A stretch of DNA of 64,000 bases, from positions 6,554,073 to 6,618,072 of the forward strand of contig OY811985.1 in assembly GCA_963681505.1 (NCBI GenBank), written 5' to 3'. The number at the start of each line of letters is the position of its first letter. The first letter of the stretch is position 1. Both the position numbers and the translations under genes were made by a program. This document shows positions 6,201 through 52,797 of this stretch, one piece after another. Source of the DNA: Eunapius fragilis. Its lineage: Eukaryota; Porifera; Demospongiae; Spongillida; Spongillidae. The notes under the pieces were generated by a model that worked only from the letters and a program-made list of their open reading frames with translations, had not been told where the DNA came from and did no database searches.

Positions 6201-6860
6201 CACCCTGAGGATACCTGCTTTGGTATGGGTTTACCAAGCGATTCAAAAGTAGGTTCCCACCCATACATTCCTATGGGAAACCACCCATGCATTTCTATGG
6301 GAAATTTTTGACTATCTTAGCATCGAGGTGTTTATGAGACATGCAATATGAGCAAACCACTGCACACATGGAAGATAGCAGTAACCACTCCTCTATCTCA
6401 TTTTAATGCCACCCCGAGGATCCCTGCTTTGGTATGGTTTTACCAAGCGATTCAAAAGTAGGTTCCCACCCATACATTTCTATGGGAAATTTTTGACTAT
6501 TTTAGCATCGAGGTGTTGATGAGACATGCAATATGAGCAAACCAATGCACACATGGAAGATAGCAGTAACCATTCCTCTATCTGTTTTAAATGCCACCCC
6601 GAAGATACCTGCTTTGGAATGGGTTTACCAAGCGATTCAAAAGTAGGTTCCCACCCATACATTCTTATGGGAAACCATCCATACATCTCTATGGGAAATA
6701 TTGACTATATTTGCATCGAGGTGTTGATGAGACATGTAATATGAGCAAACCACTGCACACATGGAAGATAGCAGTAACCATTCCTCTATCTGTTTTAAAT
6801 GCTACCCCGAGGATACCTGCTTTGGTATGGGTTTACCAAGCAATTCAAAAGTAGGTTCCC
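5420..6860 (+). repeat. 787-bp duplication (second copy partial)
   Basis: From about 5,420-6,206 the sequence recurs at +787 up to about 6,860. Shared marks are GAGGATCCC, ACCAATGCACACATGG, GGAATGGGTTTACC and ATTCTTATGG. 787 = 185 + 209 + 185 + 208; the odd base comes from the L monomer that keeps the TTTTTGAC tail. The right limit coincides with the shortened 184-bp monomer at 6,706-6,889. Confidence 0.82.
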
Positions 6861-6889
6861 ATCCATACATCTCTATGGGAAATATTGAC
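6706..6889 (+). repeat. Hybrid 184-bp monomer
   Basis: The unit has S-like length but an L-type end (CATCCATACATCTC...AAATATTGAC). Its length, 184, equals an L monomer minus exactly one 24-bp hairpin segment (208 - 24). The simplest reading is that one of the two tandem segments was lost by slippage or unequal exchange inside an L monomer. Confidence 0.88.
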
Positions 6890-9800: not shown

Positions 9801-10284
9801 ATGAGACATGCAATATGAGCAAACCACTGCACACATGGAAGATAGCAGTAACCATTCCTCTATCTGTTGTAAATGCCACCCCGAGCATACCTGCTTCGGT
9901 ATGGGTTACCCAAGCGATTCAAAAGTAGGTTCCCACCCATACATTCCTATGGGAAACCACCCATACATCTTTATGGGAAATATTGACTATCTTAGCATCG
10001 AGGTGTTGATGAGGCATGCAATATGAGCAAACCACTGCACACATGGAAGATAGCAGTAACCATTCCTCTATCTGTTTTAAATGCCACTCCGAGGATACCT
10101 GCTGTGGTATGGGTTTACCAAGCGATTCAAAAGTAGGTTCCCACCCATATATTTCTATGGGAAATTTTTGACTATCTTAGCATCGAGGTGTTGATGAGAC
10201 ATGCAATATGAGCAAACCACTGCACACATGGAAGATAGCAGTAAACATTCCTCTATCTGTTTTAAATGCAACCCCGAGCATACC

Positions 10285-12250: not shown

Positions 12251-14175
12251 GACTCAAAAGTAGGTTCCCACCCATACATTCCTATGAGAAACCACCCATA
12301 CATCTCTATGGGTAATATTGACTATCTTAGCATCGAGGTGTTGATGAGGCATGCAATATGAGCACACCACTGCACACATGGAAGATAGCAGTAACCACTC
12401 CTCTTTCTCTTTTTAATGCCACCCCGAGGATACCTGCTTTGGTATGGGTTTACCAAGCGATTCAAAAGTAGGTTCCCACCCATACATTTCTATGGGAAAT
12501 ATTTGACTATCTTAGCAACGAGGTGTTGATGAGACATGCAATATAAGCAAACCACTGCACACATGGAAGATAGCAGTAACCATTTCTCTATCTGTTTTAA
12601 ATGCCACCCCGAGCATACCTGCTTCGGTATGGGTTACCCAAGCGATTCAAAAGTAGGTTCCAACCCATACATTCCTATGGGAAACCACCCATACATCTCT
12701 ATGGGAAATATTGACTATCTTAGCATCGAGGTGTTGATGAGGCATGCAATATGAGTAAACCACTGCACACATGGAAGATAGCAGTAACCATTCCTCCATC
12801 TGTTTTAAATGCCACCAGGAGGATACCTGCATTGGTATGGGTTTACCAAGCGATTCAAAAGTAGGTTCCCACCCATACATTCCTATGGGAAACCACCCAT
12901 ACATCTCTATGGGAAATATTGACTATCTTAGCATCGAGGTGTTGATGAGGCATGCAATATGAGCAAACCACTGCACACATGGAAGATAGCAGTAACCACT
13001 CCTCTATCTCTTTTTAATGCCACCCCGAGCATACCAGCTTCGGTATGGGTTTACAAAGCGATTCAAAAGTAGGTTCCCACCCATACATTTCTATGGGACA
13101 TTTTTGACTATCTTAGCATCGAGGTGTTGATGAGACATGCAATATGAGCAAACCACTGCACACATGGAAGATAGCAGTAAACATTCCTCTATCTGTTTTA
13201 AATGCCACCCCGAGCATTCCTGCTTCGGTATGGGTTACCCAAGCGATTTAAAAGTAGGTTCCCACCCATACATTCCTATGAGAAACCACCCATACATCTC
13301 TATGGGAAATATTGACTATCTTAGCATCGAGGTGTTGATAAGGCATGCAATATGAGCACACCACTGCACACATGGAAGATAGCAGTAACCACTCCTCTTT
13401 CTCTTTTTAATGCCACCCCGAGGATACCTGCTTTGGTATGGGTTTACCAAGCGATTCAAAAGTAGGTTCCCACCCATACATTTCTATGGGAAATATTTGA
13501 CTATCTTAGCAACGAGGTGTTGATGAGACATGCAATATAAGCAAACCACTGCACACATGGAAGATAGCAGTAACCATTCCTCTATCTGTTTTAAATGCCA
13601 CCCCGAGCATACCTGCTTCGGTATGGGTTACCCAAGCGATTCAAAAGTAGGTTCCAACCCATACATTCCTATGGGAAACCACCCATACATCTCTATGGGA
13701 AATATTGACTATCTTAGCATCGAGGTGTTGATGAGGCATGCAATATGAGCAAACCACTGCACACATGGAAGATAGCAGTAACCATTCCTCCATCTGTTTT
13801 AAATGCCACCAGGAGGATACCTGATTTGGTATGGGTTTACCAAGCGATTCAAAAGTAGGTTCCCACCCATACATTCCTATGGGAAACCACCCATACATCT
13901 CTATGAGAAATATTGACTATCTTAGCATCGAGGTGTTGATGAGGCATGCAATATGAGCAAACCACTGCACACATGGAAGATAGCAGTAACCACTCCTCTA
14001 TCTCTTTTTAATGCCACCCCGAGCATACCAGCTTCGGTATGGGTTTACAAAGCGATTCAAAAGTAGGTTCCCACCCATACATTTCTATGGGACATTTTTG
14101 ACTATCTTAGCATCGAGGTGTTGATGAGACATGCAATATGAGCAAACCACTGCACACATGGAAGATAGCAGTAAC
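12157..14175 (+). repeat. Higher-order repeat, 994 bp x 2
   Basis: Copy 1 is about 12,157-13,150 and copy 2 begins at about 13,151 and matches to about 14,175. Shared marks are GAGCATTCCTGC, GCAATATAAGC, GTTCCAACCC, GCCACCAGGAGG (about 12,814/13,808), CATACCAGCTTCGG and GGGACATTTTTGAC. 994 = 3 L + 2 S, so it differs from the adjacent 971-bp unit by one S-to-L swap (23 bp). Confidence 0.87.
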
Positions 14176-16645
14176 CATTCCTCTCTCTGTTTTAAATGCC
14201 ACTCCCAGGATACCTGCTTTGGTATGGGTTTACCAAGCGATTCAAAAGTAGGTTCCCACCCATACATTTCTATGGGAAATTTTTGACTATCTTAGCATCG
14301 AGGTGTTGATGAGACATGCTATATGAGCAAACCACTGCACACATGGAAGATAGCAGTAACCATTCCTCTATCTGTTTTAAATGCCACCCCGAGCATACCT
14401 GCTTCGGTATGGGTTACCCAAGCGATTCAAAAGTAGGTTCCCACCCATACATTCCTATGGGAAACCACCCATACATCTCTATGGGAAATATTGACTATCC
14501 TAGCATCGAGGTGTTGATGAGGCATGCAATATGAGCAAACCACTGCACACATGGAAGATAGCAGTAACCACTCCTCTATCTCTTTTTAATGCCACCCCGA
14601 GCATACCAGCTTCGGTTTGGGTTTACAAAGCGATTCAAAAGTAGGTTCCCACCCATACATTTCTATGGGAAATTTTTGACTATCTTAGCATCGAGGTGTT
14701 GATGAGACATGCAATATAAGCAAACCACTGCACACATGGAAGATAGCAGTAACCATTTCTCTATCTGTTTTAAATGCCACCCCGAGCATACCTGCGTCGG
14801 TATGGGTTACCCAAGCGATTCAAAAGTAGGTTCCAACCCATACATTCCTATGGGAAACCACCCATACATCTCTATGGGAAATATTGACTATCTTAGCATC
14901 GAGGTGTTGATGAGACATGCAATATAAGCAAACCACAGCACACATGGAAGATAGCAGTAACCATTCCTCTATATGTTTTAAATGCCACCCCGAGCATACC
15001 TGCTTCGGTATGGGTTACCCAAGCGATTCAAAAGTAGGTTCCCACGAATACATTCCTATGGGAAACCACCCATACATCTCAATGGGAAATATTGACTATC
15101 TTAGCATCGAGGTGTTGATGAGGCATGCAATATGAGCAAACCACTGCACACATGGAAGATAGCAGTAACCACTCCTCTATCTCTTTTTAATGCCACCCCG
15201 AGCATACCTGCTTCGGTATGGGTTTACAAAGCGATTCAAAAGTAGGTTCCCACCCATACATTTCTATGGGAAATTATTGACTTACTTAGCATCGAGGTGT
15301 TGATGAGGCATGCAATATAAGCAAACCACTGCACACATGGAAGATAGCAGTAACCATTCCTCCATCTGTTTTAAATGCCACCAGGAGGATACCTGCTTTG
15401 GTATGGGTTTACCAAGCGATTCAAAAGTAGGTTCCCACCCATACATTCCTATGGGAAACCATCCATACATCTCTATGGGAAATATTGACTATCTTACCAT
15501 CGAGGTGTTGATGAGGCATGCAATATGAGCACACCACTGCACACATGAAAGATAGCAGTAACCATGCCTCTATCTCTTTTTAATGCCACCCCGAGGACAC
15601 CTGCTTTGGTATGGGTTTACCGAGCGATTCAAAAGTCGGTTCCCACCCATACATTTCTATGGGAAATTTTTGACTATCTTAGCATCGAGGTGTTGATGAG
15701 ACATGCAATATGAGCAAACCACTGCACACATGGAAGATAGCAGTAACCATTCCTCTCTCTGTTTTAAATGCCACTCCCAGGATACCTGCTTTGGTATGGG
15801 TTTACCAAGCGATTCAAAAGTAGGTTCCCACCCATATATTTCTATGGGAAATTTTTGACTATCTTAGCATCGAGGTGTTGATGAGACATGCAATATGAGC
15901 AAACCACTGCACACATGCAAGATAGCAGTAACCATTCCTCTATCTGTTTTAAATGCCACCCCGAGCATACCTGCTTCGGTATGGGTTACCCAAGCGATTC
16001 AAAAGTAGGTTCCCACCCATACATTCCTATGGGAAACCACCCATACATCTCTATGGGAAATATTGACTATCTTAGCATCGAGGTGTTGATGAGGCATGCA
16101 ATATGAGCAAACCACTGCACACATGGAGGATAGCAGTAACCACTCCTCTATCTCTTTTTAATGCCACCCCGAGCATACCTGCTTCGGTATGGGTTTACAA
16201 AGCGATTCAAAAGTAGGTTCCCACCCATACATTTCTATGGGAAATTTTTGACTATCTTAGCATCGAGGTGTTGATGAGACATGCAATATGAGCAAACAAC
16301 TGCACACATCGAAGATAGCAGTAACCATTCCTCTATCTGTTTTAAATGCCACCCCGAGCATACCTGCTTCGGTATGGGTTACCCAAGCGATTCAAAAGTA
16401 GGTTCCCACCCATACATTCCTATGGGAAACCACCCATACATCTCTATGGGTAATATTGACTATCTTAGCATCGAGGTGTTGATGAGGCATGCAATATGAG
16501 CAAACCACTGCACACATGGAAGATAGCAGTAACCACTCCTCTATCTCTTTTTAATGCCACCCCGAGGATACCTGCTTTGGTATGGGTTTACCAAGCGATT
16601 CAAAAGTAGGTTCCCACCCATACATTTCTATGGGAAATTTTTGAC

Positions 16646-16830
16646 TATCTTAGCATCGAGGTGTTGATGAGACATGCAATATAAGCAAACCACTGCACAC
16701 ATGGAAGATAGCAGTAACCATTCCTCTATCTGTTTTAAATGCCACCCCGAGGATACCTGCTTTGGTATGGGTTTACCGAGCGATTCAAAAGTAGGTTCCC
16801 ACCCATACATTTCTATGGGAAATTTTTGAC
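16646..16830 (+). repeat. Representative short (S) monomer, 185 bp
   Basis: This unit runs from TATCTTAGC to the next GAC and is exactly 185 bp. It holds one copy of the hairpin-like CCCATA-N6-TATGGG near its 3' end, followed by GGGAAATTTTTGAC. It also carries the TTGGTA-N6-TACC dyad; here the following A is G, so the last base pair is lost. S monomers occur throughout both arms. In + reading they end the open frame at TTTTTGA. 185 bp is close to the size of one nucleosome plus linker, a length common among satellites; that link is general knowledge, not shown here. Confidence 0.95.
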
Positions 16831-17038
16831 TATCTTAGCATCGAAGTGTTGATGAGACATGCAATATGAGCAAACCACTGCACACATGGAAGATAGCAGT
16901 AACCATTCCTCTATCTGTTTTAAATGCCACCCCGAGGATACCTGCTTTGGTATGGGTTTACCAAAAGATTCAAATGTAGGTTCCCACCCATACATTTCTA
17001 TGGGAAACCACCCATACATCTCTATGGGAAATATTGAC
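16831..17038 (+). repeat. Representative long (L) monomer, 208 bp
   Basis: This unit is exactly 208 bp. It matches the preceding S monomer until near the 3' end, where the CCCATA-N6-TATGGG segment is present twice, at 16,987-17,004 and 17,011-17,028, a step of 24 bp. The tail is AAATATTGAC instead of AAATTTTTGAC, one base shorter, giving 185 + 24 - 1 = 208. A 209-bp version that keeps the TTTTTGAC tail exists, for example near 6,086-6,310, and shows the two changes are separable. Confidence 0.95.
16947..17028. other. Dyad-symmetry cluster within a monomer
   Basis: Three short perfect inverted repeats lie in the 3' half of this L monomer: TTGGTA-N6-TACCAA at 16,947-16,964, CCCATA-N6-TATGGG at 16,987-17,004 and again at 17,011-17,028. 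S monomers have the first and one of the second. Monomers of the TTACCC class keep only GGTA-N5-TACC. Stem length is six base pairs, enough to note but not enough to claim a folded structure. Whether a protein binds here is unknown. Confidence 0.75.
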
Positions 17039-20000
17039 TATCTTAGCATCGAGGTGTTGATGAGGCATGCAATATGAGCAAACCACTGCACACATGGAAG
17101 TAACCACTCCTCTATCTCTTTTTAATGCCACCCCGAGGATACCTGCTTTGGTATGGGTTTACCAAGCGATTCAAAAGTAGGTTCCCACCCATACATTTCT
17201 ATGGGAAATTTTTGACTATCTTAGCATCGAGGTGTTGATGAGACATGCAATATAAGCAAACCACTGCACACATGGAAGATAGCAGTAACCATTCCTCTAT
17301 CTGTTTTAAATGCCACCCCGAGCATACCTGCTTCGGTATGGGTTACCCAAGCGATTCAAAAGTAGGTTCCCACCCATACATTCCTATGGGAAACCACCCA
17401 TACATCTCTATGGGAAATATTGACTATCTGAGCATCGAGGTGTTGATGAGGCATTTAATATGATAAAACCACTGCACACATGGAAGATAGCAGTAACCAC
17501 TCCTCTATCTCTTTTTAATGCCACCCCGAGGATACCTGCTTTGGTATGGGTTTACCAAGCGATTCAAAAGTAGGTTCCCACCCATATATTTCTATGGGAA
17601 ATTTTTGACTATCTTAGCATCGAGGTGTTGATGAGACATGCAATATGAGCAAACCACTGCACACATGCAAGATAGCAGTAACCATTCCTCTATCTGTTTT
17701 AAATGCCACCCCGAGCATACCTGCTTCGGTATGGGTTACCCAAGCGATTCAAAAGTAGGTTCCCACCCATACATTCCTATGGGAAACCACCCATACATCT
17801 CTATGGGAAATATTGACTATCTTAGCATCGAGGTGTTGATGAGGCATGCAATATGAGCAAACCACTGCACACATGGAGGATAGCAGTAACCACTCCTCTA
17901 TCTCTTTTTAATGCCACCCCGAGCATACCTGCTTCGGTATGGGTTTACAAAGCGATTCAAAAGTAGGTTCCCACCCATACATTTCTATGGGAAATTTTTG
18001 ACTATCTTAGCATCGAGGTGTTGATGAGACATGCAATATGAGCAAACAACTGCACACATCGAAGATAGCAGTAACCATTCCTCTATCTGTTTTAAATGCC
18101 AACCCGAGCATACCTGCTTCGGTATGGGTTACCCAAGCGATTCAAAAGTAGGTTCCCACCCATACATTCCTATGGGAAACCACCCATACATCTCTATGGG
18201 TAATATTGACTATCTTAGCATCGAGGTGTTGATGAGGCATGCAATATGAGCAAACCACTGCACACATGGAAGATAGCAGTAACCACTCCTCTATCTCTTT
18301 TTAATGCCACCCCGAGGATACCTGCTTTGGTATGGGTTTACCAAGCGATTCAAAAGTAGGTTCCCACCCATACATTTCTATGGGAAATTTTTGACTATCT
18401 TAGCATCGAGGTGTTGATGAGACATGCAATATAAGCAAACCACTGCACACATGGAAGATAGCAGTAACCATTCCTCTATCTGTTTTAAATGCCACCCCGA
18501 GGATACCTGCTTTGGTATGGGTTTACCGAGCGATTCAAAAGTAGGTTCCCACCCATACATTTCTATGGGAAATTTTTGACTATCTTAGCATCGAAGTGTT
18601 GATGAGACATGCAATATGAGCAAACCACTGCACACATGGAAGATAGCAGTAACCATTCCTCTATCTGTTTTAAATGCCACCCCGAGGATACCTGCTTTGG
18701 TATGGGTTTACCAAAAGATTCAAATGTAGGTTCCCACCCATACATTTCTATGGGAAACCACCCATACATCTCTATGGGAAATATTGACTATCTTAGCATC
18801 GAGGTGTTGATGAGGCATGCAATATGAGCAAACCACTGCACACATGGAAGTAACCACTCCTCTATCTCTTTTTAATGCCACCCCGAGGATACCTGCTTTG
18901 GTATGGGTTTACCAAGCGATTCAAAAGTAGGTTCCCACCCATACATTTCTATGGGAAATTTTTGACTATCTTAGCATCGAGGTGTTGATGAGACATGCAA
19001 TATAAGCAAACCACTGCACACATGGAAGATAGCAGTAACCATTCCTCTATCTGTTTTAAATGCCACCCCGAGCATACCTGCTTCGGTATGGGTTACCCAA
19101 GCGATTCAAAAGTAGGTTCCCACCCATACATTCCTATGGGAAACCACCCATACATCTCTATGGGAAATATTGACTATCTGAGCATCGAGGTGTTGATGAG
19201 GCATTTAATATGATAAAACCACTGCACACATGGAAGATAGCAGTAACCACTCCTCTATCTCTTTTTAATGCCACCCCGAGGATACCTGCTTTGGTATGGG
19301 TTTACCAAGCGATTCAAAAGTAGGTTCCCACCCATACATTTCTATGGGAAATTTTTGACTATCTTACCATCGAGGTGTTGATGAGACATGCAATATAAGC
19401 AAACCACTGCACACATGGAAGATAGCAGTAACCATTCCTCTATCTGTTTTAAATGCCACCCCGAGCATACCTGCGTCGGAATGGGTTACCCAAGCGATTC
19501 AAAAGTAGGTTCCAACCCATACATTCCTATGGGAAACCACCCATACATCTCTATGGGAAATATTGACTATCTTAGCATCGAGGTGTTGATGAGACATGCA
19601 ATATGAGCAAACCACTGCACACATCGAAGATAGCAGTAACCATTCCTCTATCTGTTTTAAATGCCACCCCGAGCATACCTGCTTCGGTATGGGTTACCCA
19701 AGCGATTCAAAAGTAGGTTCCCACCCATACATTCCTATGGGAAACCACCCATACATCTCTATGGGAAATATTGACTATCTGAGCATCGAGGTGTTGATGA
19801 GGCATGCAATATGAGCAAACCACTGCACACATGGAAGATAGCAGTAACCACTCCTCTATCTCTTTTTAATGCCACCCCGAGGATACCTGCTTTGGTATGG
19901 GTTTACCAAGCGATTCAAAAGTAGGTTCCCACCCATACATTTCTATGGGAAATTTTTGACTATCTTAGCATCGAGGTGTTGATGAGACATGCAATATAAG

Positions 20001-20168
20001 CAAACCACTGCACACATGGAAGATAGCAGTAACCATTCCTCTATCTGTTTTAAATGCCACCCCGAGCATACCTGCTTCGGTATGGGTTACCCAAGCGATT
20101 TAAAAGTAGGTTCCCACCCATACATTCCTATGGGAAACCACCCATACATCTCTATGGGAAATATTGAC

Positions 20169-20334
20169 TATCTTAGCATCAGGCATGCAATATGAGCAAA
20201 CCACTGCACACATGGAAGTAACCACTCCTCTATCCCTTTTTAATTGCACCCCGAGGATACCTGCTTTGGTATGTGTTTACCAAGCGATTCAAAAGTAGGT
20301 TCCCACCCATACATTTCTATGGGAAATTTTTGAC
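20169..20334 (+). repeat. Doubly deleted 166-bp monomer
   Basis: The unit has lost 12 bp at about 20,180 (AGCATC joined directly to AGGCATGC) and 7 bp at about 20,218 (GGAAG joined to TAACC): 185 - 12 - 7 = 166. The 7-bp loss is the same one seen at 17,100 and 18,850, so this monomer shares ancestry with the 1,750-bp repeat and gained the 12-bp loss separately. Confidence 0.88.
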
Positions 20335-20362
20335 TATCTTAGCATCGAGGTGTTGATGAGAC

Positions 20363-22720
20363 ATGCAATATAAGCAAATTACTGCACACATGGAGGATAG
20401 CAGTAACCATTTCTCTATCTGTTTTAAATGCCACCCCGAGCATACCTGCGTCGGTATGGGTTACCCAAGCGATTCAAAAGTAGGTTCCAACCCATACATT
20501 CCTATGGGAAACCACCCATACATCTCTATGGGAAATATTGACTATCTTAGCATCGAGGTGTTGATGAGACATGCAATATAAGCAAACCACTGCACACATG
20601 GAAGATAGCAGTAACCATTCCTCTATCTGTTTTAAATGCCACCCCGAGCATACCTACTTCGGTATGGGTTACCCAAATGATTCAAAAGTAGGTTCCAACC
20701 CATACATTCCTATGGGAAACCACCCATACATCTCTATGGGAAGTATTGACTATCTTAGCATCGAGGTGTTGATGATGCATGCATTATGAGCAAACCACTG
20801 CACACATGGAAGATAGCAGTAACCATTCCTCTATCTGTTTTAAATGCCACCCCGAGAATACCTGCTTTGGTATGGGTTTACCGAGCGATTCAAAAGTAGG
20901 TTCCCACCCATACATTTCTATTGGAAATTTTTGACTATCTTAGCATCAAGGTGTTGATGAGACATGCAATATGAGCAAACCACTGCACACATGGAAGATA
21001 GCAGTAACCATTCCTCTATCTGTTTTAAATGCCACCCCGAGGATACCTGCTTTGGTATGGGTTTACCAAGCGATTAAAATGTAGGTTCCCACCCATACAT
21101 TTCTATGGAAATTTTTGACTATCTTAGCATCGAGGTGTTGATGAGACATGCAATATGAGCAAACCACTGCACACATCGAAGATAGCAGTAACCATTCCTC
21201 CATCTGTTTTAAATGCCACCCCGAGCATACCTGCTTCGGTATGGGTTACCCAAGCGATTCAAAAGTAGGTTCCCACCCATACAATCCTATGGGAAACCAC
21301 CCATACATCTCTATGGGAAATATTGACTATCTTAGCATCGAGGTGTTGATGAGGCATGCAATATGAGCAAACCACTGCACACATGGAAGATAGCAGTAAC
21401 CACTCGTCTATCTCTTTTTAATGCCACCCCGAGGATACCTGCTTTGGTATGGGTTTACCAAGCGATTCAAAAGTAGGTTCCCACCCATACATTTCTATGG
21501 GAAATTTTTGACTATCTTAGCATCGAGGTGTTGATGAGACATGCAATATAAGCAAACCACTGCACACATGGAAGATAGCAGTAACCATTCCTCTATCTGT
21601 TTTAAATGCCACCCCGAGCATACCTGCGTCGGTATGGGTTACCCAAGCGATTCAAAAGTAGGTTCCCACCCATACATTCCTATGGGAAACCACCCATACA
21701 TCTCTATGGGAAATATTCACTATCTTAGCATCGAGGTGTTGATGAGTCATGCAATATAAGCAAACCACTGCACACATGGAAGATAGCAGTAACCATTCCT
21801 CTATCTGTTTTAAATGCCATCCCGAGCATACCTACTTCGGTATGGGTTACCCAAGCGATTCAAAAGTAGGTTCCAACCCATACATTCCTATGGGAAACCA
21901 CCCATACATCTCTATGGGAAATATTGACTATCTTAGCATCGAGGTGTTGATGATGCATGCAATATGAGCAAACCACTGCACACATGGAAGATAGCAGTAA
22001 CCATTCCTCTATCTGTTTTAAATGCCACCCCGAGGATACCTGCTTTGGTATGGGTTTACCGAGCGATTCAAAGGTAGGTTCCCACCCATACATTTCTATG
22101 GGAAATTTTTGACTATCTTAGCATCGAGGTGTTGATGAGACATGCAATATGAGCAAACCACTGCACACATGGAAGATAGCAGTAACCATTCCTCTATCTG
22201 TTTTAAATGCCACCCCGAGGATACCTGCTTTGGTATGGGTTTACCAAGCGATTCAAATGTAGGTTCCCACCCATACATTTCTATGGGAAAATTTTGACTA
22301 TCTTAGCAACGAGGTGTTGATGAGACATGCAATATGAGCAAACCACTGCACACATCGAAGATAGCAGTAACCATTCCTCTATCTGTTTTAAATGCTACCC
22401 CGAGCATACCTGCTTCGGTATGGGTTACCCAAGCGATTCAAAAGTAGGTTCCCACCCATACATTCCTATGGGAAACCACCCATACATCTCTATGGGAAAT
22501 ATTGACTCTCTTAGCATCGAGGTATTGATGAGGCATGCAATATGAGCAAACCACTGCACACATGGAAGATAGCAGTAACCACTCCTCCATCTCTTTTTAA
22601 TGCCACCCCGAGGATACCTGCTTTGGTATGGGTTTACCAAGCGATTCAAAAGTAGGTTCCCACCCATACATTCCTATGGGAAACCACCCATACATCTCTA
22701 TGGGAAATATTGACTATCTT
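20363..22720 (+). repeat. Diverged higher-order repeat, about 1,178-1,179 bp
   Basis: Monomers from about 20.4 kb recur at +1,178 (GCATACCTGCGTCGG, then GCATACCTACTTCGG at 20,650/21,828). After the 1-bp loss at about 21,108 (CTATGGAAATTTTTG) the offset becomes 1,179 (ACATCGAAGATAG). 1,179 = 3 L + 3 S. The copies differ at several sites, so this is an older duplication than the 1,750-bp one. Confidence 0.7.
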
Positions 22721-23518
22721 AGCATCGAGGTGTTGATGAGGCATGCAATGTGAGCAAACCACTGCACACATGGAAGATAGCATTAACCATTCCTCTATCT
22801 GTTTTAAATGCCACCCCGAGCATACCTGCTTCGGTATGGGTTACCCAAGCGATTCAAAAGTAGGTTCCCACCCATACATTCCTATGGGAAACCACCCATA
22901 CATCTCTATGGGAAATATTGACTATCTTAGCATCGAGGTGTTGATGAGGCATGCAATATGAGCAAACCACTGCACACATGGAAGATAGCAGTAACCACTC
23001 CTCTATCTCTTTTTAATGCCACCCCGAGGATACCTGCTTTGGTATGGGTTTACCAAGTGATTCAAAAGTAGGTTCCCACCCATACATTTCTATGGGAAAT
23101 TTTTGACTATCTTAGCATCGAGGTGTTGATGAGACATGCAATACAAGCAAACCACTGCAGACATGGACGATAGCAGTAACCATTCCTCTATCTGTTTTAA
23201 ATGCCACCCCGAGCATACCTGCGTCGGTATGGGTTACCCAAGCCATTCAAAAGTAGGTTCCAACCCATACATTCCTATGGGAAACCACCCATACATCTCT
23301 ATGGGAAATATTGACTATCTTAGCATCGAGGTGTTGATGAGACATGCAATATGAGCAAACCACTGCACACATGGAAGATAGCAGTAACCATTCCTCTATC
23401 TGTTTTAAATGCCACCCCGAGGATACCTGCTTTGGTATGGGTTTACCAAGCGATTCAAATCTAAGTTCCCACCCATACATTCCTATGGGAAACCACCCAC
23501 ACATTTCTATGGGAAATA

Positions 23519-23530
23519 TTGACTAGTCAA
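23519..23530. repeat. Inversion junction between the two array arms (12-bp palindrome)
   Basis: Left-arm monomers end in ...GGGAAATATTGAC followed by TATCTTAG. Here GAC is instead followed by TAGTCAAAAATTTCCC, which is a monomer end read backwards. The result is the perfect palindrome TTGACTAGTCAA, tail-to-tail with respect to the monomer definition used here. The join falls within the short shared letters GACTA/TAGTC, so no filler DNA is needed. Flanking GGGAAA and TTTCCC also pair, with a 1-bp offset. The left flanking monomer is L with an unusual TTCAAATCTAAG; the right is S with TTAACACAG and GTGTCCAG. The arms therefore are not copies of each other at the join. Confidence 0.95.
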
Positions 23531-25559
23531 AAATTTCCCATAGAAATGCATGGGTGGGAACCTACTTTTGAATCGCTTGGTAAACCCATACCAAAGCAGG
23601 TATGCTCGGGGTGGCATTTAACACAGATAGAGGAGTGGTTACTGCTATCTTCCATGTGTCCAGTGGTTTGCTCATATTGCATGCCTCATCAACACCTCGA
23701 TGCTAAGATAGTCAATATTTCCCATTGAGATGTATGGGTGGTTTCCCATAGGAATGTATGGGTGGGAACCTACTTTTGAATCGCTTGGGTAACCCATACC
23801 GAAGCAGGTATGCTCGGGGTGGCATTTAAAACAGATAGAGGAATGGTTACTGCTATCTTCCATGTGTGCAGTGGTTAGCTCATATTGCATGTCTCATCAA
23901 CACCTCGATGTAAGATAGTCAAAAATTTCCCTTAGAAATGTATGGGTGGGAACCTACGTTTGAATCGCTTGGTAAACCCATACCAAAGCAGGTATCCTCG
24001 GGGTGGCATTTAAAACAGATAGAGGAATGGTTACTGCTATCTTCCATGTGTGCAGTGGTTTGCTCATATTGCATGTCTCATCAACACCTCGATGCTAAGA
24101 TAGTCAAAAATTTCCCATAGAAATGTATGGGTGGGAACCTACTTTTGAATCGCTTGGGTAACCCATACCGAAGCAGGTATGCTCGGGGTGGCATTTAAAA
24201 CAGATAGAGGAATGGTTACTGCTATTTTCCATGTGTGCAGTGGTTTGCTCATACTGCATGTCTCATCAACACCTCGATGCTAAGATAGTCAAAAATTTCC
24301 CATAGAAATGTATGGGTGGGAACCTACTTTTGAATCGCTTGGTAAACCCATACCAAAGCAGGTATCCTCGGGGTGGCAATAAAAAGAGATAGAGGAGTGG
24401 TTATTGCTATCTTCCATGTGTGCAGTGGTTTGCTCATATTGCATGCCTCATCAACACCTCGATGCTAAGATAGTCAATATTTCCCATAGAGATGTATGGG
24501 TGGTTTCCCATAGGAATGTATGGGTGGGAACCTACTTTTGAATCGCTTGGTAAACCCATACCAAAGCAGGTATCCTCGGGGTGGCATTAAAAAGAGATAG
24601 AGGAGTGGTTACTGCTATCTTCCATGTGTGCAGTGGTTTGCTCATATTGCATGCATCATCAACACCTCGATGCTAAAATAGTCAATATTTCCCATAGAGA
24701 TGTATGGGTGGTTTCCCATAGGAATGTATGGGTGGGAACCTACTTTTGAATCGCTTGGTAAACCCATACCAAAGCAGGTATCCTCGGGGTGGCATTTAAA
24801 ACAGATAGAGCAATGGTTACTGCTATCTTCCATGTGTGCAGTGGTTTGCTCATATTGCATGTCTCATCAACACCTCGATGCTAAGATGGTCAAAAATTTC
24901 CCTTAGAAATGTATGGGTGGGAACCTACTTTTGAATCGCTTGGTAAACCCATACCAAAGCAGGTATCCTCGGGGTGGCTTTAAAAACAGATAGAGGAATG
25001 GTTACTGCTATCTTCCATGTGTGCAGTGGTTTGCTCATATTGCATGTCTCATCAACACCTCGATGGTAAGATAGTCAAAAATTTCCCATAGAAGTGCATG
25101 GGTGGGAACTTACTTTTGAATCGCTTGGTAAACCCATACCAAAGCAGGTATCCTCGGGGTGGCATTAAAAAGAGATAGAGGAGTTGTTACTGCTATCTTC
25201 CATGTGTGCAGTGGTTTGCTCATATTGCATGCCTCATCAACACCTCGATGCTAAGATAGACAATATTTCCCATAGAGATGTATGGGTGGTTTCCCATAGG
25301 AATGTATGGGTGGGAACCTACTTTTGAATCGCTTGGGTAACCCATACCGAAGCAGGTATGCTCGGGGTGGCATTTAAAACAGATAGAGGAATGGTTACTG
25401 CTATCTTCCATGTGTGCAGTGGTTTGCTCATATTGCATGTCTCATCAACACCACGATGCTAAGATAGTCAAAAATTTCCCATAGAAATGTATGGGTGGGA
25501 ACCTACTTTTGAATCGCTTGGGTAACCCATACCGAAGCAGGTATGCTCGGGGTGGCATT

Positions 25560-28349
25560 TAAAACAGATAGAGGAATGGTTACTGCTATCTTCCATGTGT
25601 GCAGTGGTTTGCTCATATTGCATGTCTCATCAACACCTCGATGCTAAGATAGTCAAAAATTTCCCATAGAAATGTATGGGTGGGAACCTACTTTTGAATC
25701 GCTTGGTAAACCCATACCAAAGCAGGTATCCTCTGGGTGGCATTAAAAAGAGATAGAGGAGTGGTTACTGCTATCTTCCATGTGTGCAGTGGTTTGCTCA
25801 TATTGCATGCCTCATCAACACTTCGATGCTAAGAGAGTCAATATTTCCCATAGAGATGTATGGGTGGTTTCCCATAGGAATGTATGGGTGGGAACCTACT
25901 TTTGAATCGCTTGGTAAACCCATACCAAAGCAGGAATCCTCGGGGTGGCATTTAAAACAGATAGAGGAATGGTTACTGCTATCTTCCATGTGTGCAGTGG
26001 TTTGCTCATATTGCATGTCTCATCACCACCTCGATGCTAAGATAGTCAAAAATTTCCCATGGAAATGTATGGGTGGGAACCTACTTTTGAATTGCTTGGT
26101 AAACCCATACCAAAGAAGGTATCCTTGGGGTGGCATTTAAAACAGATAGAGGAATGGTTATTGCTATCTTCCATGTGTGCAGTGGTTTGCTCATATTGCA
26201 TGCCTCATCAACACCTCGATGCTAAGATAGTCAATATTTCCCATAGAGATGTATAGGTGGTTTCCCATAGGAATGTATGGGTGGGAACCTACTTTTGAAT
26301 CGCTTGGTAAACCCATACCAAAGCAGGTATCCTCGGTGTGGCATTTAAAACAGATAGAGGAATGGTTACTGCTATCTTCCATGTGTGCAGTGGTTTGCTC
26401 ATATTGCATGTCTCATCAACACCTCGATGCTAAGATAGTCAAAAATTTCCCATAGAAATGTATGGGTGGGAACTTACTTTTGAATCGCTTGGTAAACCCA
26501 TACCAAAGAGGTATCCTCGGGGTGGCATTAAAAAGAGATAGAGGAGTTGTTACTGCTATCTTCCATGTGTGCAGTGGTTTGCTCATATTGCATGCCTCAT
26601 CAACACCTCGATGCTAAAATAGTCAATATTTCCCATAGAGATGTATGGGTGGTTTCCCATAGGAATGTATGGGTGGGAACCTACTTTTCAATCGCTTGGG
26701 AAACCCATACCAAAGCAGGTATGCTCGGGGTGGCATTTAAAACAGATAGAGGAATGGTTACTGCTATCTTCCATGTGTGCAGTGGTTTGCTCATATTGCA
26801 TGTCTCATCAACACCTCGATGCTAAGATAGTCAAAATTTTCCCATAGAAATGTATGGGTGGGAACCTACTTTTGAATCGCTTGGGTAACCCATACCGAAG
26901 CAGGTATGCTCGGGGTGGCATTTAAAACAGATAGAGGAATGGTTACTGCTATCTTCCATGTGTGCAGTGGTTTGCTCATATTGCATGTCTCATCAACACC
27001 TCGATGCTAAGATAGTCAAAAATTTCCCATAGAAATGTATGGGTGGGAACCTACTTTTGAATCGCTTGGTAAACCCATACCAAACCAGGTATCCTCAGGG
27101 TGGCATTAAAAAGAGATAGAGGAGTGGTTACTGCTCTCTTCCATGTGTGCAGTAGTTTGCTCATATTGCATGCCTCATCAACACCTCGATGCTAAGAGAG
27201 TCAATATTACCCATAGAGATGTATGGGTGGTTTCCCATAGGAATGTATGGGTGGGAACCTACTTTTGAATCGCTTGGTAAACCCATACCAAAGCAGGAAT
27301 CCTCAAGGTGGCATTTAAAACAGATAGAGGAATGGTTACTGCTATCTTCCATGTGTGCAGTGGTTTGCTCATATTGCATGTCTCATCAACACCTCGATGC
27401 TAAGATAGTCAAAAATTTCCCATAGAAATGTATGGGTGGGAACCTACTTTTGAATCGCTTGGGTAACCCATACCGAAGCAGGTATGCTCTGGGTGGCATT
27501 TAAAACAGATAGAGGAATGGTTACTGCTATCTTCCATGTGTGCAGTGGTTTGCTCATATTGCATGTCTCATCAACACCTCGATGCTAAGATAGTCAAAAA
27601 TATCCCATAGAAATGTATGGGTGGGAACCTACTTTTGAATCGCTTGGTAAACCCATACCAAAGCAGGTATCCTCAGGGTGGCATTAAAAAGAGATAGAGG
27701 AGTGGTTACTGCTATCTTCCATGTGTGCAGTGGTTTGCTCATATTGCATGCCTCATCAACACCTCGATGCTAAGAGAGTCAATATTTCCCATAGAGATGT
27801 ATGGGTGGTTTCCCATAGGAATGTATGGGTGGGAACCTACTTTTGAATCGCTTGGTAAACCCATCCCAAAGCAGGAATCCTCGGGGTGGCATTTAAAACA
27901 GATAGAGGAATGGTTACTGCTATCTTCCATGTGTGCAGTGGTTTGCTCATATTGCATGTCTCATCAACACCTCGATGCTAAGATAGTCAAAAATTTCCCA
28001 TGGAAATGTATGCGTGGGAACCTACTTTTGAATTGCTTGGTAAACCCATACCAAAGCAGGTATCCTCGGGGTGGCATTTAAAACAGATAGAGGAATGGTT
28101 ACTGCTATCTTCCATGTGTGCAGTGGTTTGCTCATATTGCATGCCTCATCAACACCTCGATGCTAAGATAGTCAATATTTCCCATAGAGATGTATGGGTG
28201 GTTTCCCATAGGAATGTATGGGTGGGAACCTACTTTTGAATCGCTTGGTAAACCCATACCAAAGCAGGTATCCTCGGTGTGGCATTTAAAACAGATAGAG
28301 GAATGGTTACTGCTATCTTCCATGTGTGCAGTGGTTTGCTCATATTGCA
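25560..28349 (-). repeat. Duplicated block at 1,941-bp spacing
   Basis: About 25,560-26,408 recurs at about 27,501-28,349. Shared marks are AAGAGAGTCAATATTTC, GCAGGAATCCTCGGGG, TTTCCCATGGAAATG with GAATTGCTTGG, and CCTCGGTGTGGC. 1,941 = 4 L + 6 S - 1, and the missing base is visible at about 26,507 (CCAAAGAGGTATCC lacks the C of GCAGG). Intervening monomers are only loosely similar. Confidence 0.75.
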
Positions 28350-31300
28350 TGCCTCATCAACACCTCGATGCAAAGATAGTCAATATTTCCCATAGAGATG
28401 TATGGGTGGTTTCCCATAGGAATGTATGGGTGGGAACCTACTTTTGAATCGCTTGGTAAACCCATACCAAAGCAGGTATCCTCGGTTTGGCATTTAAAAC
28501 AGATAGAGGAATGGTTACTGCTATCTTCCATGTGTGCAGTGGTTTGCTCATATTGCATGTCTCATCAACACCTCGATGCTAAGATAGTCAAAAATTTCCC
28601 ATAGAAATGTATGGGTGGGAACTTACTTTTGAATCGCTTGGTAAACCCATACCAAAGCAGGTATCCTCGGGGTGGCATTAAAAAGAGATAGAGGAGTTGT
28701 TACTGCTATCTTCCATGTGTGCAGTGGTTTGCTCATATTGCATGCCTCATCAACACCTCGATGCTAAGATAGTCAATATTTCCCATAGAGATGTATGGGT
28801 GGTTTCCCATAGGAATGTATGGGTGGGAACCTACTTTTGAATCGCTTGGGTAACCCATACCGAAGCAGATATGCTCGGGGTGGCATTTAAAACAGATAGA
28901 GGAATGGTTACTGCTATCTTCCATGTGTGCAGTGGTTTGCTCATATTGCATGTCTCATCAACACCTCGATGCTAAGAGAGTCAAAAATTTCCCATAGAAA
29001 TGTATGGGTGGGAACCTACTTTTGAATCGCTTGGGTAACCCATACCGAAGCAGGTATGCTCGGGGTGGCATTTAAAACAGATAGAGGAATGGTTACTGCA
29101 ATCTTCCATGTGTGCAGTGGTTTGCTCATATTGCATGTCTCATCAACACCTCGATGCTAAGATAGTCAAAAATTTCCCATAGAAATGTATGGGTGGGAAC
29201 CTACTTTTGAATCGCTTGGTAAACCCATACCGAAGCAGGTATGCTCGGGGTGGCATTTAAAACAGATAGAGGAATGGTTACTGCTATCTTCCATGTGTGC
29301 AGTGGTTTGCTCATATTGCATGTCTCATCAACACCTCGATGCTAAGAGAGTCAAAAATTTCCCATAGAAATGTATGGGTGGGAACCTACTTTTGAATCGC
29401 TTGGCTAACCCATACCGAAGCAGGTATGCTCGGGGTGGCATTTAAAACAGATAGAGGAATGGTTACTGCTATCTTCCATGTGTGCAGTGGTTTGCTCATA
29501 TTGCATGTCTCATCAACACCTCGATGCTAAGATAGTCAATATTTCCCATAGAGATGTATGGGTGGTTTCCCATAGGAATGTATGGGTGGGAACCTACTTT
29601 TGAATCGCTTGGGTAACCCATACCGAAGCAGGTATGCTCGGGGTGGCATTTAAAACAGATAGAGGAATGGTTACTGCTATCTTCCATGTGTGCAGTGGTT
29701 TGCTCATACTGCATGTCTCATCAACACCTCGATGCTAAGATAGTCAATATTTCCCATAGAGATGTATGGGTGGTTTCCCATAGGAATGTATGGGTGGGAA
29801 CCTACTTTTGAATCGCTTGGTAAACCCATACCAAAGCAGGTATCCTCGGGGTGGCATTAAAAAGAGATAGAGGAGTGGTTACTGCTATCTTCCATGTGTG
29901 CAGTGGTTTGCTCATATTGCATGCCTCATCAACACCTCGATGCTAAGAGAGTCAATATTTCCCATAGAGATGTATGGGTGGTTTCCCATAGGAATGTATG
30001 GGTGGGAACCTACTTTTTAATCGCTTGGTAAACCCATACCAATGCAGGTATCCTCGGGGTGGCATTTAAAACAGATAAAGGAATGGTCACTGCTATCTTC
30101 CATGTGTGCAGTGGTTTGCTCATATTGCATGTCTCATCAACACCTCGATGCTAAGATAGTCAAAAATTTCCCATGGAAATGTATGGGTGGGAACCTACTT
30201 TTGAATCGCTTGGTAAACCCATACCAAAGCAGGTATCCTCGGGGTGGCATTAAAAAGAGATATAGGAGTGGTTACTGCTATCTTCCATGTGTGCAGTGGT
30301 TTGCTCATATTGCATGCCTCATCAACACCTCGATGCTAAGAGAGTCAATATTTCCCATAGAGATGTATGGGTGGTTTCCCATAGGAATGTATGGGTGGGA
30401 ACCTACTTTAGAATCGCTTGGTAAACCCATACCAAAGCAGGTATCCTCGGGGTGGCATTTATAACAGATAGAGGAATGGTTACTGCTATCTTCCATGTGT
30501 GCAGTGGTTTGCTCATATTGCATGTCTCATCAACACCTCGATGCTAAGATAGTCAAAAATTTCCCATGGAAATGTATGGGTGGGAACCTACTTTTGAATT
30601 GCTTGGTAAACCCATACCAAAGCAGGTATCCTCGGGGTGGCATTTAAAACAGATAGAGGAATGGTTACTGCTATCTTCCATGTGTGCAGTGGTTTGCTCA
30701 TATTGCATGCCTCATCAACACCTCGATGCTAAGATAGTCAATATTTCCCATAGAGATGTATGGGTGGTTTCCCATAGGAATGTATGGGTGGGAACCTACT
30801 TTTGAATCGCTTGGTAAACCCATACCAAAGCAGGTATCCTCGGTGTGGCATTTAAAACAGATAGAGGAATGGTTACTGCTATCTTCCATGTGTGCAGTGG
30901 TTTACTCATATTGCATGTCTCATCAACACCTCGATGCTAAGATAGTCAAAAATTTCCCATAGAAATGTATGGGTGGGAACCTACTTTTGAATCGCTTGGG
31001 TAACCCATACCGAAGCAGGTATGCTCGGGGTGGCATTTAAAACAGATAGAGGAATGGTTACTGCTATCTTCCATGTGTGCAGTGGTTTGCTCATACTGCA
31101 TGTCTCATCAACACCTCGATGCTAAGATAGTCAATATTTCCCATAGAGAGTATGGGTGGTTTCCCATAGGAATGTATGGGTGGGAACCTACTTTTGAATC
31201 GCTTGGGTAACCCATACCGAAGCAGGTATGCTCGGGGTGGCATTTAAAACAGATAGAGGAATGGTTACTGCTATCTTCCATGTGTGCAGTGGTTTGCTCA

Positions 31301-31811
31301 TACTGCATGTCTCATCAACACCTCGATGCTAAGATAGTCAATATTTCCCATAGAGATGTATGGGTGGTTTCCCATAGGAATGTATGGGTGGGAACCTACT
31401 TTTGAATCGCTTGGTAAACCCATACCAAAGCAGGTATCCTCGGGGTGGCATTAAAAAGAGATAGAGGAGTGGTTACTGCTATCTTCCATGTGTGCAGTGG
31501 TTTGCTCATATTGCATGCCTCATCAACACCTCGATGCTAAGAGAGTCAATATTTCCCATAGAGATGTATGGGTGGTTTCCCATAGGAATGTATGGGTGGG
31601 AACCTACTTTTGAATCGCTTGGTAAACCCATACCAAAGCAGGTATCCTCGGGGTGGCATTTAAAACAGATAAAGGAATGGTTACTGCTATCTTCCATGTG
31701 TGCAGTGGTTTGCTCATATTGCATGTCTCATCAACACCTCGATGCTAAGATAGTCAAAAATTTCCCATGGAAATGTATGGGTGGGAACCTACTTTTGAAT
31801 TGCTTGGTAAA

Positions 31812-34583
31812 CCCATACCAAAGCAGGTATCCTCGGGGTGGCATTTAAAACAGATAGAGGAATGGTTACAGCTATCTTCCATGTGTGCAGTGGTTTGCTC
31901 ATATTGCATGCCTCATCAACACCTCGATGCTAAGATAGTCAATATTTCCCATAGAATTGTATGGGTGGTTTTTCATAGGAATGTATGGGTGGGAACCTAC
32001 TTTTGAATCGTTTGGTAAACCCATACCAAAGCAGGTATCCTCGGGGTGGCATTAAAAAGAGATAGAGGAGTGGTTACTGCTATCTTCCATGTGTGCAGTG
32101 GTTTGCTCATATTGCATGCCTCATCAACACCTCGATGCTAAGAGAGTCAATATTTCCCATAGAGATGTATGGGTGGTTTCCCATAGGAATGTATGGGTGG
32201 GAACCTACTTTTGAATCGCTTGGTAAACCCATACCAAAGTAGGTATCCTCGGGGTGGCATGTAAAACAGATAGAGGAATGGTTACTGCTATCTTCCATGT
32301 GTGCAGTGGTTTGCTCATATTGCATGTCTCATCAACACCTCGATGCTAAGATAGTCAAAATTTTCCCATGGAAATGTATGGGTGGGAACCTACTTTTGAA
32401 TTGCTTGGTAAACCCATACCAAAGCAGGTATCCTCGGGGTGGCATTTAAAACAGATAGAGGAATGGTTACTGCTATCTTCCATGTGTGCAGTGGTTTGCT
32501 CATATTGCATGCCTCATCAACACCTCGATGCTAAGATAGTCAATATTTCCCATAGAGATGTATGGGTGGTTTCCCATAGGAATGTATGGGTGGGAACCTA
32601 CTTTTGAATCGCTTGGTAAACCCATACCAAAGCAGGTATCCTCGGTGTGGCATTTAAAACAGATAGAGGAATGGTTACTGCTATCTTCCATGTGTGCAGT
32701 GGTTTGCTCATATTGCATGTCTCATCACCACCTCGATGCTAAGATAGTCAAAAATTTCCCATAGAAATGTATGGGTGGGAACTTACTTTTGAATCGCTTG
32801 GTAAACCCATACCAAAGCAGGTATCCTCGGGGTGGCATTAAAAAGAGATAGAGGAGTTGTTACTGCTATCTTCCATGTGTGCAGTGTTTGCTCATATTGC
32901 ATGCCTCATCAACACCTCGATGCTAAGATAGTCAATATTTCCCATAGAGATGTATGGGTGGTTTCCCATAGGAATGTATGGGTGGGAACCTACTTTTGAA
33001 TCGCTTGGGTAACCCATGCCGAAGCAGGTATGCTCGGGGTGGCATTTAAAACAGATAGAGGAATGGTTACTGCTATCTTCCATGTGTGCAGTGGTTTGCT
33101 CATATTGCATGTCTCATCAACACCTCGATGCTAAGATAGTCAAAAATTTCCCATAGAAATGTATGGGTGGGAACCTACTTTTGAATCGCTTGGGTAACCC
33201 ATACCAAAGCAGGTATCCTCGGGGTGGCATTTAAAACAGATAGAGGAATGGTTACAGCTATCTTCCATGTGTGCAGTGGTTTGCTCATATTGCATGCCTC
33301 ATCAACACCTCGATGCTAAGATAGTCAATATTTCCCATAGAATTGTATGGGTGGTTTTTCATAGGAATGTATGGGTGGGAACCTACTTTTGAATCGTTTG
33401 GTAAACCCATACCAAAGCAGGTATCCTCGGGGTGGCATTAAAAAGAGATAGAGGAGTGGTTACTGCTATCTTCCATGTGTGCAGTGGTTTGCTCATATTG
33501 CATGCCTCATCAACACCTCGATGCTAAGAGAGTCAATATTTCCCATAGAGATGTATGGGTGGTTTCCCATAGGAATGTATGGGTGGGAACCTACTTTTGA
33601 ATCGCTTGGTAAACCCATACCAAAGTAGGTATCCTCGGGGTGGCATGTAAAACAGATAGAGGAATGGTTACTGCTATCTTCCATGTGTGCAGTGGTTTGC
33701 TCATATTGCATGTCTCATCAACACCTCGATGCTAAGATAGTCAAAAATTTCCCATGGAAATGTATGGGTGGGAACCTACTTTTGAATTGCTTGGTAAACC
33801 CATACCAAAGCAGGTATCCTCGGGGTGGCATTTAAAACAGATAGAGGAATGGTTACTGCTATCTTCCATGTGTGCAGTGGTTTGCTCATATTGCATGCCT
33901 CATCAACACCTCGATGCTAAGATAGTCAATATTTCCCATAGAGATGTATGGGTGGTTTCCCATAGGAATGTATGGGTGGGAACCTACTTTTGAATCGCTT
34001 GGTAAACCCATACCAAAGCAGGTATCCTCGGTGTGGCATTTAAAACAGATAGAGGAATGGTTACTGCTATCTTCCATGTGTGCAGTGGTTTGCTCATATT
34101 GCATGTCTCATCACCACCTCGATGCTAAGATAGTCAAAAATTTCCCATAGAAATGTATGGGTGGGAACTTACTTTTGAATCGCTTGGTAAACCCATACCA
34201 AAGCAGGTATCCTCGGGGTGGCATTAAAAAGAGATAGAGGAGTTGTTACTGCTATCTTCCATGTGTGCAGTGTTTGCTCATATTGCATGCCTCATCAACA
34301 CCTCGATGCTAAGATAGTCAATATTTCCCATAGAGATGTATGGGTGGTTTCCCATAGGAATGTATGGGTGGGAACCTACTTTTGAATCGCTTGGGTAACC
34401 CATACCGAAGCAGGTATGCTCGGGGTGGCATTTAAAACAGATAGAGGAATGGTTACTGCTATCTTCCATGTGTGCAGTGGTTTGCTCATATTGCATGTCT
34501 CATCAACACCTCGATGCTAAGATAGTCAAAAATTTCCCATAGAAATGTATGGGTGGGAACCTACTTTTGAATCGCTTGGGTAA
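31812..34583 (-). repeat. Higher-order repeat, 1,386 bp x 2
   Basis: Copy 1 is about 31,812-33,197, copy 2 about 33,198-34,583. Shared marks at +1,386 are GGTTACAGCTATC (31,865/33,251), ATAGAATTGTATGG, GGTTTTTCATAGG, AAAGTAGGTATCC with GGCATGTAAAAC, CCTCGGTGTGGC, CTCATCACCACC, and the 1-bp loss GCAGTGTTTGC. 1,386 = 4 L + 3 S - 1. Few differences were seen (CCCATGCCG versus CCCATACCG). Confidence 0.9.
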
Positions 34584-37500
34584 CCCATACCGAAGCAGGT
34601 ATGCTCGGGGTGGCATTTAAAAAAAATAGAGGAATGGTTACTGCTATCTTCCATGTGTGCAGTGGTTTGCTCATACTGCATGTATCATCAACACCTCGAT
34701 GCTAAGATAGTCAAAAATTTCCCATAGAAATGTATGGGTGGGAACCTACTTTTGAATCGCTTGGTAAACCCATACCAAAGCAGGTATCCTCGGGATGGCA
34801 TTAAAAAGAGATAGAGGAGTGGTTACTGCTATCTTCCATGTGTGCAGTGGTTTGCTCATATTGCATGCCTCATCAACACCTCGATGCTAAGATAGTCAAT
34901 ATTTCCCATAGAGATGTATGGGTGGTTTCCCATAGGAATGTATGGGTGGGAACCTACTTTTGAATCGCTTGGTAAACCCATACCATAGCAGGTATCCTCG
35001 GGGTGGCATTTAAAACAGATAGAGGAATGGTTACTGCTATCTTCCATGTGTGCAGTGGTTTGCTCATATTGCATGCCTCATCAACACCTCGATGCTAAGA
35101 TAGTCAATATTTCCCATAGAGATGTATGGGTGGTTTTTCATAGGAATGTATGGGTGGGAACCTACTTTTGAATCGCTTGGTAAACCCATACCAAAGCAGG
35201 TATCCTCGGGGTGGCATTAAAAAGAGATAGAGGAGTGGTTACTGCTATCTTCCATGTGTGCAGTGGTTTGCTCAGATTGCATGCCGCATCAACACCTCGA
35301 TGCTAAGAGAGTCAATATTTCCCATAGAGATGTATGGGTGGTTTCCCATAGGAATGTATGGGTGGGAACCTACTTTTCAATCGCTTGGAAATCCCATACC
35401 AAAGTAGGTATCCTCGGGGTGGCATGTAAAACAGATAGAGGAATGGTTACTGCTATCTTCCATGTGTGCAGTGGTTTGTTCATATTGCATGTCTCATCAA
35501 CACCTCGATGCTAAGATAGTCAAAAATTTCCCATGGAAATGTATGGGTGGGAACCTACTTTTGAATTGCTTGGTAAACCCATACCAAAGCAGGTATCCTC
35601 GGGGTGGCATTTAAAACAGATAGAGGAATGGTTACTGCTATCTTCCATGTGTGCAGTGGTTTGCTCATATTGCATGCCTCATCAACACCTCGATGCTAAG
35701 ATAGTCAATATTTCCCATAGAGATGTATGGGTGGTTTCCCATAGGAATGTATGGGTGGGAACCTACTTTTGAATCGCTTGGTAAACCCATACCAAAGCAG
35801 GTATCCTCGGGGTGGCATTTAAAACAGATAGAGGAATGGTTACTGCTATCTTCCATGTGTGCAGTGGTTTGCTCATATTGCATGTCTCATCAACACCTCG
35901 ATGCTAAGATAGTCAAAAATTTCCCATGGAAATGTATGGGTGGGAACCTACTTTTGAATTGCTTGGTAAACCCATACCAAAGCAGGTATCCACGGGGTGG
36001 CATTTAAAACAGATAGAGGAATGGTTACTGCTATCTTCCATGTGTGCAGTGGTTTGCTCATATTGCATGCCTCATCAACACCTCGATGCTAAGATAGTCA
36101 ATATTTCCCACAGAGATGTATGGGTGGTTTTTCATAGGAATGAATGGGTGGGAACCTACTTTTGAATCGCTTGGTAAACCCATACCAAAGCAGGTATCCT
36201 CGGGGTGGCATTAAAAAGAGATAGAGGAGTGGTTACTGCCATCTTCCATGTGTGCAGTGGTTTGCTCATATTGCATGCCTCATCAACACCTCGATGCTAA
36301 GAGAGTCAATATTTCCCATAGAGATGTATGGGTGGTTTCCCATAGGAATGTATGGGTGGGAACCTACTTTTGAATTGCTTGGTAAACCCATACCAAAGCA
36401 GGTATCCTCGGGGTGGCATTTAAAACAGATAGAGGAATGGTTACTGCTATCTTCCATGTGTGCAGTGGTTTGCTCATATTGCATGTCTCATCAACACCTC
36501 GATGCTAAGATAGTCAAAAATTTCCCATGGAAATGTATGGGTGGGAACCTACTTTTGAATTGCTTGGTAAACCCATACCAAAGCAGGTATCCTCGGGGTA
36601 GCATTTAAAACAGATAGAGGAATGGTTACTGCTATCTTCCATGTGTGCAGTGGTTTGCTCATATTGCATGCCTCATCAACACCTCGATGCTAAGATAGTC
36701 AATATTTCCCATAGAGATGTATGGGTGGTTTCCCATAGGAATGTATGGGTGGGAACCTACTTTTGAATCGCTTGGTAAACCCATACCAAAGCAGGTATCC
36801 TCGGTGTGGCATTTAAAACAGATAGAGGAATGGTTACTGCTATCTTCCATGTGTGCAGTGGTTTGCTCATATTGCATGTCTCATCACCACCTCGATGCTA
36901 AGATAGTCAAAAATTTCCCATAGAAATGTATGGGTGGGAACTTACTTTTGAATCGCTTGGTAAACCCATACCAAAGCAGGTATCCTCGGGGTGGCATTAA
37001 AAAGAGATAGAGGAGTTGTTACTGCTATCTTCCATGTGTGCAGTGTTTGCTCATATTGCATGCCTCATCAACACCTCGATGCTAAGATAGTCAATATTTC
37101 CCATAGAGATGTATGGGTGGTTTCCCATAGGAATGTATGGGTGGGAACCTACTTTTGAATCGCTTGGGTAACCCATACCGAAGCAGGTATGCTCGGGGTG
37201 GCATTTAAAACAGATAGAGGAATGGTTACTGCTATCTTCCATGTGTGCAGTGGTTTGCTCATATTGCATGTCTCATCAACACCTCGATGCTAAGATAGTC
37301 AAAAATTTCCCATAGAAATGTATGGGTGGGAACCTACTTTTGAATCGCTTGGGTAACCCATACCGAAGCAGGTATGCTCGGGGTGGCATTTTAAAAAAAT
37401 AGAGGAATGGTTACTGCTATCTTCCATGTGTGCAGTGGTTTGCTCATACTGCATGTATCATCAACACCTCGATGCTAAGATAGTCAAAAATTTCCCATAG

Positions 37501-52740: not shown

Positions 52741-52797
52741 CAACACCTCGATGCTAAGATAGTCAATATTTCCCATAGAGATGTATGGGTGGTTTCC

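Follow-up and report, generated by a model that had tools for sequence, protein, structure and literature searches.

An inverted junction in an assembled satellite array of the sponge Eunapius fragilis

Flips of orientation inside satellite DNA are already known from Tribolium, pea and human, and the junction analyzed here, in a 64-kb stretch of satellite DNA from the sponge Eunapius fragilis (contig OY811985.1, positions 6,554,073 to 6,618,072), is a further example. We call this whole stretch the window and count all coordinates from its first letter; the published reports are cited for those portions of their text that were available. In Tribolium madens, the satellites TmSat1 and TmSat2 form macro-dyad symmetries, in which inverted satellite sub-arrays extend up to tens of kb, and the inversion sites number in the thousands, are highly conserved, contain divergent subunits and are predicted to form hairpins ending in loops (PMC13081366). 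In pea CEN6, array a2 of the FabTR-10 satellite has an inverted portion, and homogenization acts mainly within arrays or parts of arrays (PMC10027222). Human pericentromeric satellites carry polymorphic inversions whose predicted breakpoints lie within or close to satellite repeats; these inversions were found by Strand-seq and partly confirmed in assemblies, with an example of ~1.3 Mb in chromosome 1 (PMC10150506). Human fold-back inverted duplications show microhomology of 2-8 bp at 13 junctions and a spacer in 21 of the 21 sequenced junctions (PMC3907307). Inverted junctions seen at the base level are a record of breakage and rejoining in satellite arrays, and a comparison of the two arms is a natural test of whether reversed orientation halts homogenization. 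We suggest that the E. fragilis junction is probably an old inverted junction inside the array, with arms that have since been homogenized separately.

Satellite monomers fill the whole window and come in two lengths, ~185 bp (S) and ~208 bp (L), the latter with an additional copy of a ~24-bp module. An earlier note, made from the letters alone, had described a clean orientation switch at a 12-bp palindrome, where ~23.5 kb of + monomers meet 40.5 kb of - monomers with no filler, and our analysis bears this out. Seven monomer words occur in the + orientation only to the left of the junction and in the - orientation only to the right, with zero exceptions, and 120 + anchors are followed by 202 - anchors, which tile both arms at a spacing that is always 150-230 bp. 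Monomers of one family and opposite orientation meet at this one point, which is the single orientation switch that we found in the 64-kb window, and the GC skew changes its sign there. The arms, cut into monomer pieces after TTGACTA, and the elements at their meeting point are as follows.

1..23525, + strand: left arm, with 120 anchors and 121 pieces, including one 48-bp fragment at the window edge
23524..64000, - strand: right arm, with 202 anchors and 203 pieces, including one 146-bp fragment at the window edge
23318..23525, + strand: last + monomer, whole, 208 bp (L), ending in TTGACTA
23524..23708, - strand: first - monomer, whole, 185 bp (S), ending in TTGACTA
23519..23530, no strand: junction, the 12-bp palindrome TTGACTAGTCAA, in which the monomer ends overlap by TA at 23524-23525

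At the junction, each arm stops after a complete monomer, in one and the same phase (...TTGACTA), and the arms have 2 bp (TA) in common; it is this overlap of the two monomer ends that creates the 12-bp palindrome. TTGACTAGTCAA has no other match in the window even when up to 2 mismatches are allowed, and it is the only perfect palindrome of at least 12 bp there. A palindrome of this length is not rare in itself, because the window, base-shuffled 20 times, contains a mean of 16.7 of them; rather, the satellite is palindrome-poor. The two meeting monomers differ in length type, L versus S, and in the variants that mark them, TTCAAATCTAAG at 23454 and TTAACACAG at 23618, as the earlier note had said of the flanking arms; neither variant is present elsewhere in the window. 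Another word, CATGCATTT, is found in the first - monomer (23544) and otherwise only in the left arm, at 228, 3742, 5499 and 6286, possibly as an old link between the arms or as a recurrent change. The 150 bp surrounding the junction, folded as single-stranded DNA, reach -43.5 kcal/mol (z -12.9), while two ordinary stretches used as controls gave z +1.1 and -2.3. We considered this hairpin as a sign of function and rejected it, because an inverted satellite junction folds by construction.

Among the described systems, the junction resembles the T. madens sites in its inverted sub-arrays, its strong hairpin potential and perhaps also in having divergent subunits at the inversion site. However, thousands of conserved sites with hairpin loops are described there, whereas this window holds one spacer-free site, and the units of ~110 bp in T. 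madens versus 185/208 bp here indicate, by unit length, a different satellite. Array a2 of pea is similar in its inverted portion and its within-array homogenization, a comparison that stands above the base level. The human pericentromeric inversions are alike in their satellite-associated breakpoints but, judged by the chromosome 1 example, much larger. The human fold-back duplications are alike in joining inverted ends by short microhomology, but the E. fragilis junction has neither a visible spacer nor recognizable mirror arms. With the U-type model it shares the symmetry of the join but, again, not the mirror arms.

A symmetric join with short microhomology and no filler (same phase, 2-bp TA) is what a fold-back or U-type event leaves behind, and when recent, such an event also leaves one arm as the inverted copy of the other. 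Tests of collinearity, of register and of shared sites did not find such copies, so that a recent fold-back origin with mirror arms is unsupported. For all monomer comparisons, 322 pieces were aligned, leaving out the two fragments at the window edges. The best collinear run of monomers across the arms was 9, versus a mean of 12 in 60 shuffles and 11 in a reversed-order control. The proportion of registers as close as the mirror register was 28% for 3 monomers, 14% for 5, 17.9% for 10, 39.7% for 20, 17.2% for 60, 19.6% for 80 and 33.1% for 100, and the mirror register was mildly close only at 30, 40 and 50 monomers (3.4, 1.4 and 3.2%). In a gapped comparison anchored at the arm ends, 27% of 300 random anchors were equally good. 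An earlier count on shared sites (14-50%) was driven mainly by the alignment columns of the L/S indel; recounting on the 8 sites variable in both arms, with and without L/S as one character, 6-48% of the registers were as close over 10 lengths. Compared mirror-wise over aligned bases, with gaps set aside, the arms are 95.1% identical in their first 2 kb, but monomers that belong to one satellite resemble each other to about this degree in any case (the median difference between monomers across the arms is 11). Since the mirror tests show no convincing relation, it is unlikely that the junction is a fresh fold-back read or that it stems from an inverted duplication of recent date. The earlier note had taken the non-mirror arms as an argument against a simple fold-back read artefact; this holds for a fresh one but does not extend to other chimeric reads or misassemblies.

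The relatedness of the monomers suggests that the junction is old. Monomers within 2 kb of the junction have no exact twin in the window (0/10 left, 0/10 right), while at 16-24 kb 27 of the 38 left and 39 of the 40 right monomers have one. The distance to the nearest other monomer climbs toward the junction in both arms (Spearman correlation with distance from the junction, -0.37 left and -0.66 right). The last + monomer has 5 differences from its nearest relative in the window and the first - monomer has 6, the largest value in the right arm; distances of at least 5 are found for 10/120 left and 2/202 right monomers. Exact twins are frequent inside an arm (51/120 left and 155/202 right monomers) and absent among the 24,240 pairs across the arms. 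We weakened an initial claim of a strong barrier, because splitting the window elsewhere also gave zero exact twins across the split at 86 of the 282 points, and the zero at the junction is thus not special. Near-twins were defined as pairs with 2 or fewer differences in which both monomers lie within 5 kb of the split: one of the 650 pairs across the junction qualifies, versus a median of 27 pairs over all 273 split points, and only 9 splits have as few, of which five fall at 23.3-24.7 kb and the other four at 8.0-8.6 kb. Of the monomer classes, two have similar numbers in the left and right arms (24 and 26; 17 and 16) and the others occur mostly in one arm. In the left arm, the classes shared by the arms are enriched within 8 kb of the junction (27/41 versus 30/79 beyond, p 0.004); in the right arm the enrichment is not clear (13/41 versus 31/161, p 0.09). 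The simplest reading of these observations is a common pool of monomers, followed by the inverted join and then by separate homogenization of the arms.

How the junction may have formed can be outlined as follows. Two DNA ends that both stopped after TTGACTA, and so were in the same monomer phase, would have been joined through the 2-bp palindromic microhomology TA, most likely by microhomology-mediated joining; the ends could have come from two breaks in one array, producing an inversion, or from sister chromatids, producing a U-type fusion. Afterwards, unequal exchange would have homogenized only copies of the same orientation, and therefore the arms would have evolved separately and the junction would have stayed in an old divergent zone. 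Because near-twins across the junction and close relatives beside it are both few, we favor an old junction with separately homogenized arms. The earlier note had offered an inversion breakpoint or an old inverted junction; the inverted junction and its signs of age stand, while a real chromosomal inversion breakpoint is a candidate only.

Several points weigh against this interpretation. It rests on the assembled sequence. The gradient in the left arm is uneven, with only 9 of the 31 monomers at 10-16 kb having an exact twin, and the enrichment of the shared classes is clear in that arm only. There are 45 cross-arm pairs one difference apart, involving 9 left and 10 right monomers; the splits that likewise lack exact twins across them have been mentioned, and near the junction the mean distance between monomers of opposite arms is one that 81 of the 273 splits match or exceed. 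The second low in near-twins, at about 8042-8626, lies where the orientation is unchanged. Beside the junction, neighbors of the same orientation are found on one side only, and this may raise the nearest-neighbor distances by itself. Finally, the match in phase, to which we turn now, was noticed only after looking.

In 200,000 simulated random joins, ~75% of the distinct junctions had no microhomology and ~6.5% had at least 2 bp. The microhomology in the earlier note is present, as 2 bp (TA) for the usual monomer form, but by this measure weak alone, and we rejected it as stand-alone evidence. That note had left the phase coincidence unweighed. Ends at the same phase within 2 bp arose in 2.5% of 400,000 random joins in a clean recount; an earlier simulation of the same size gave 2.6% with a slightly wider test that admitted a few further symmetric cases. 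The phase match is moderately surprising and keeps a same-phase fusion with later divergence among the candidate origins.

The probability that we assign to an old junction is divided between two origins. The first, a two-break inversion of an array block with random breakpoints, would place its other breakpoint outside the window and leave the phase to chance; we hold it tentatively, as something short of an even bet. It accounts for the lack of mirror symmetry between the arms, and satellite arrays that are inverted in part have been reported in pea (PMC10027222) and human (PMC10150506), while the ~2.5% chance of the same phase speaks against it, as does the lack of a second junction in the window, although one could lie outside. 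The second is a same-phase fusion, either of sister chromatids (U-type) or by a fold-back with a whole-monomer spacer, in which arms that were mirror copies initially would have diverged beyond recognition through unequal exchange and conversion. By itself we regard it as somewhat unlikely. The same phase, the lack of filler and the palindromic 2-bp overlap fit this origin; the human fold-back study counts the lack of a spacer among the key features of the U-type model (PMC3907307), and with 30-50 monomers the mirror register comes somewhat close. On the other hand, most of the mirror tests are ordinary, including those on sites variable in both arms, no collinear run exceeds the shuffles, and the meeting monomers differ in length type. 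In sum, the phase match mildly favors fusion and the absence of mirror arms weighs against it.

The phase could also reflect a property of the satellite. Two left-arm monomers (1038 and 2402) contain GACTAGT, which holds the palindrome ACTAGT, and the microhomology could have been longer than 2 bp if this rarer form stood at the break. Inverted joins in this satellite might form at the fixed phase TTGACTA|TAGTCAA, and not by chance, with the palindromic GACTAGT variant or a break-prone site letting the ends self-join; taken as a whole, we consider this proposal quite improbable. If true, spacer-free inversion sites would recur in this satellite, the junction being one of them, and such a site would keep its two sides from homogenizing each other. 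The join is unusually symmetric, and if this genome proved to hold further joins in that phase, a preferred break phase would be indicated.

Satellite arrays are hard to assemble. The junction could be an artefact, two genuine arrays of opposite orientation having been linked by a chimeric read or through misassembly, but we think this unlikely. Misassembly can occur in satellite arrays (PMC13081366), and a nearby exact repeat of 11,203 bp could likewise be an assembly duplication. However, a fold-back read would yield mirror arms, and none were seen; the window consists of A, C, G and T only, with no N gap; and an overlap join would hardly pass from one strand to the other at a single base if no read contained the change. 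That the junction coincides with few near-twins across it also speaks for a real junction, yet the same is expected for two unrelated arrays that were misjoined.

Among the papers searched, none matched any of 12 longer words and none contained both monomer lengths (185 and 208 bp) together. The 10-base word ACCCATACAT occurs in a lettuce probe (chicory/lettuce, PMC11598091), and the probe, as given in the available part of that report, is not this satellite. The satellite had no match in Rfam, and one 22-bp word had none in viral or prokaryote contigs. Within the window, the repeat of 11,203 bp mentioned above is an exact one in the right arm, 40293-51495 and 52798-64000 (offset 12,505), which reaches the window edge; either ~60 monomers were duplicated in tandem very recently or the duplication arose in the assembly. 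The left arm contains three long exact repeats, at 561-3309 (1385 bp, offset 1364), 10283-12252 (999 bp, offset 971) and 16353-19336 (1234 bp, offset 1750), which are local higher-order blocks.
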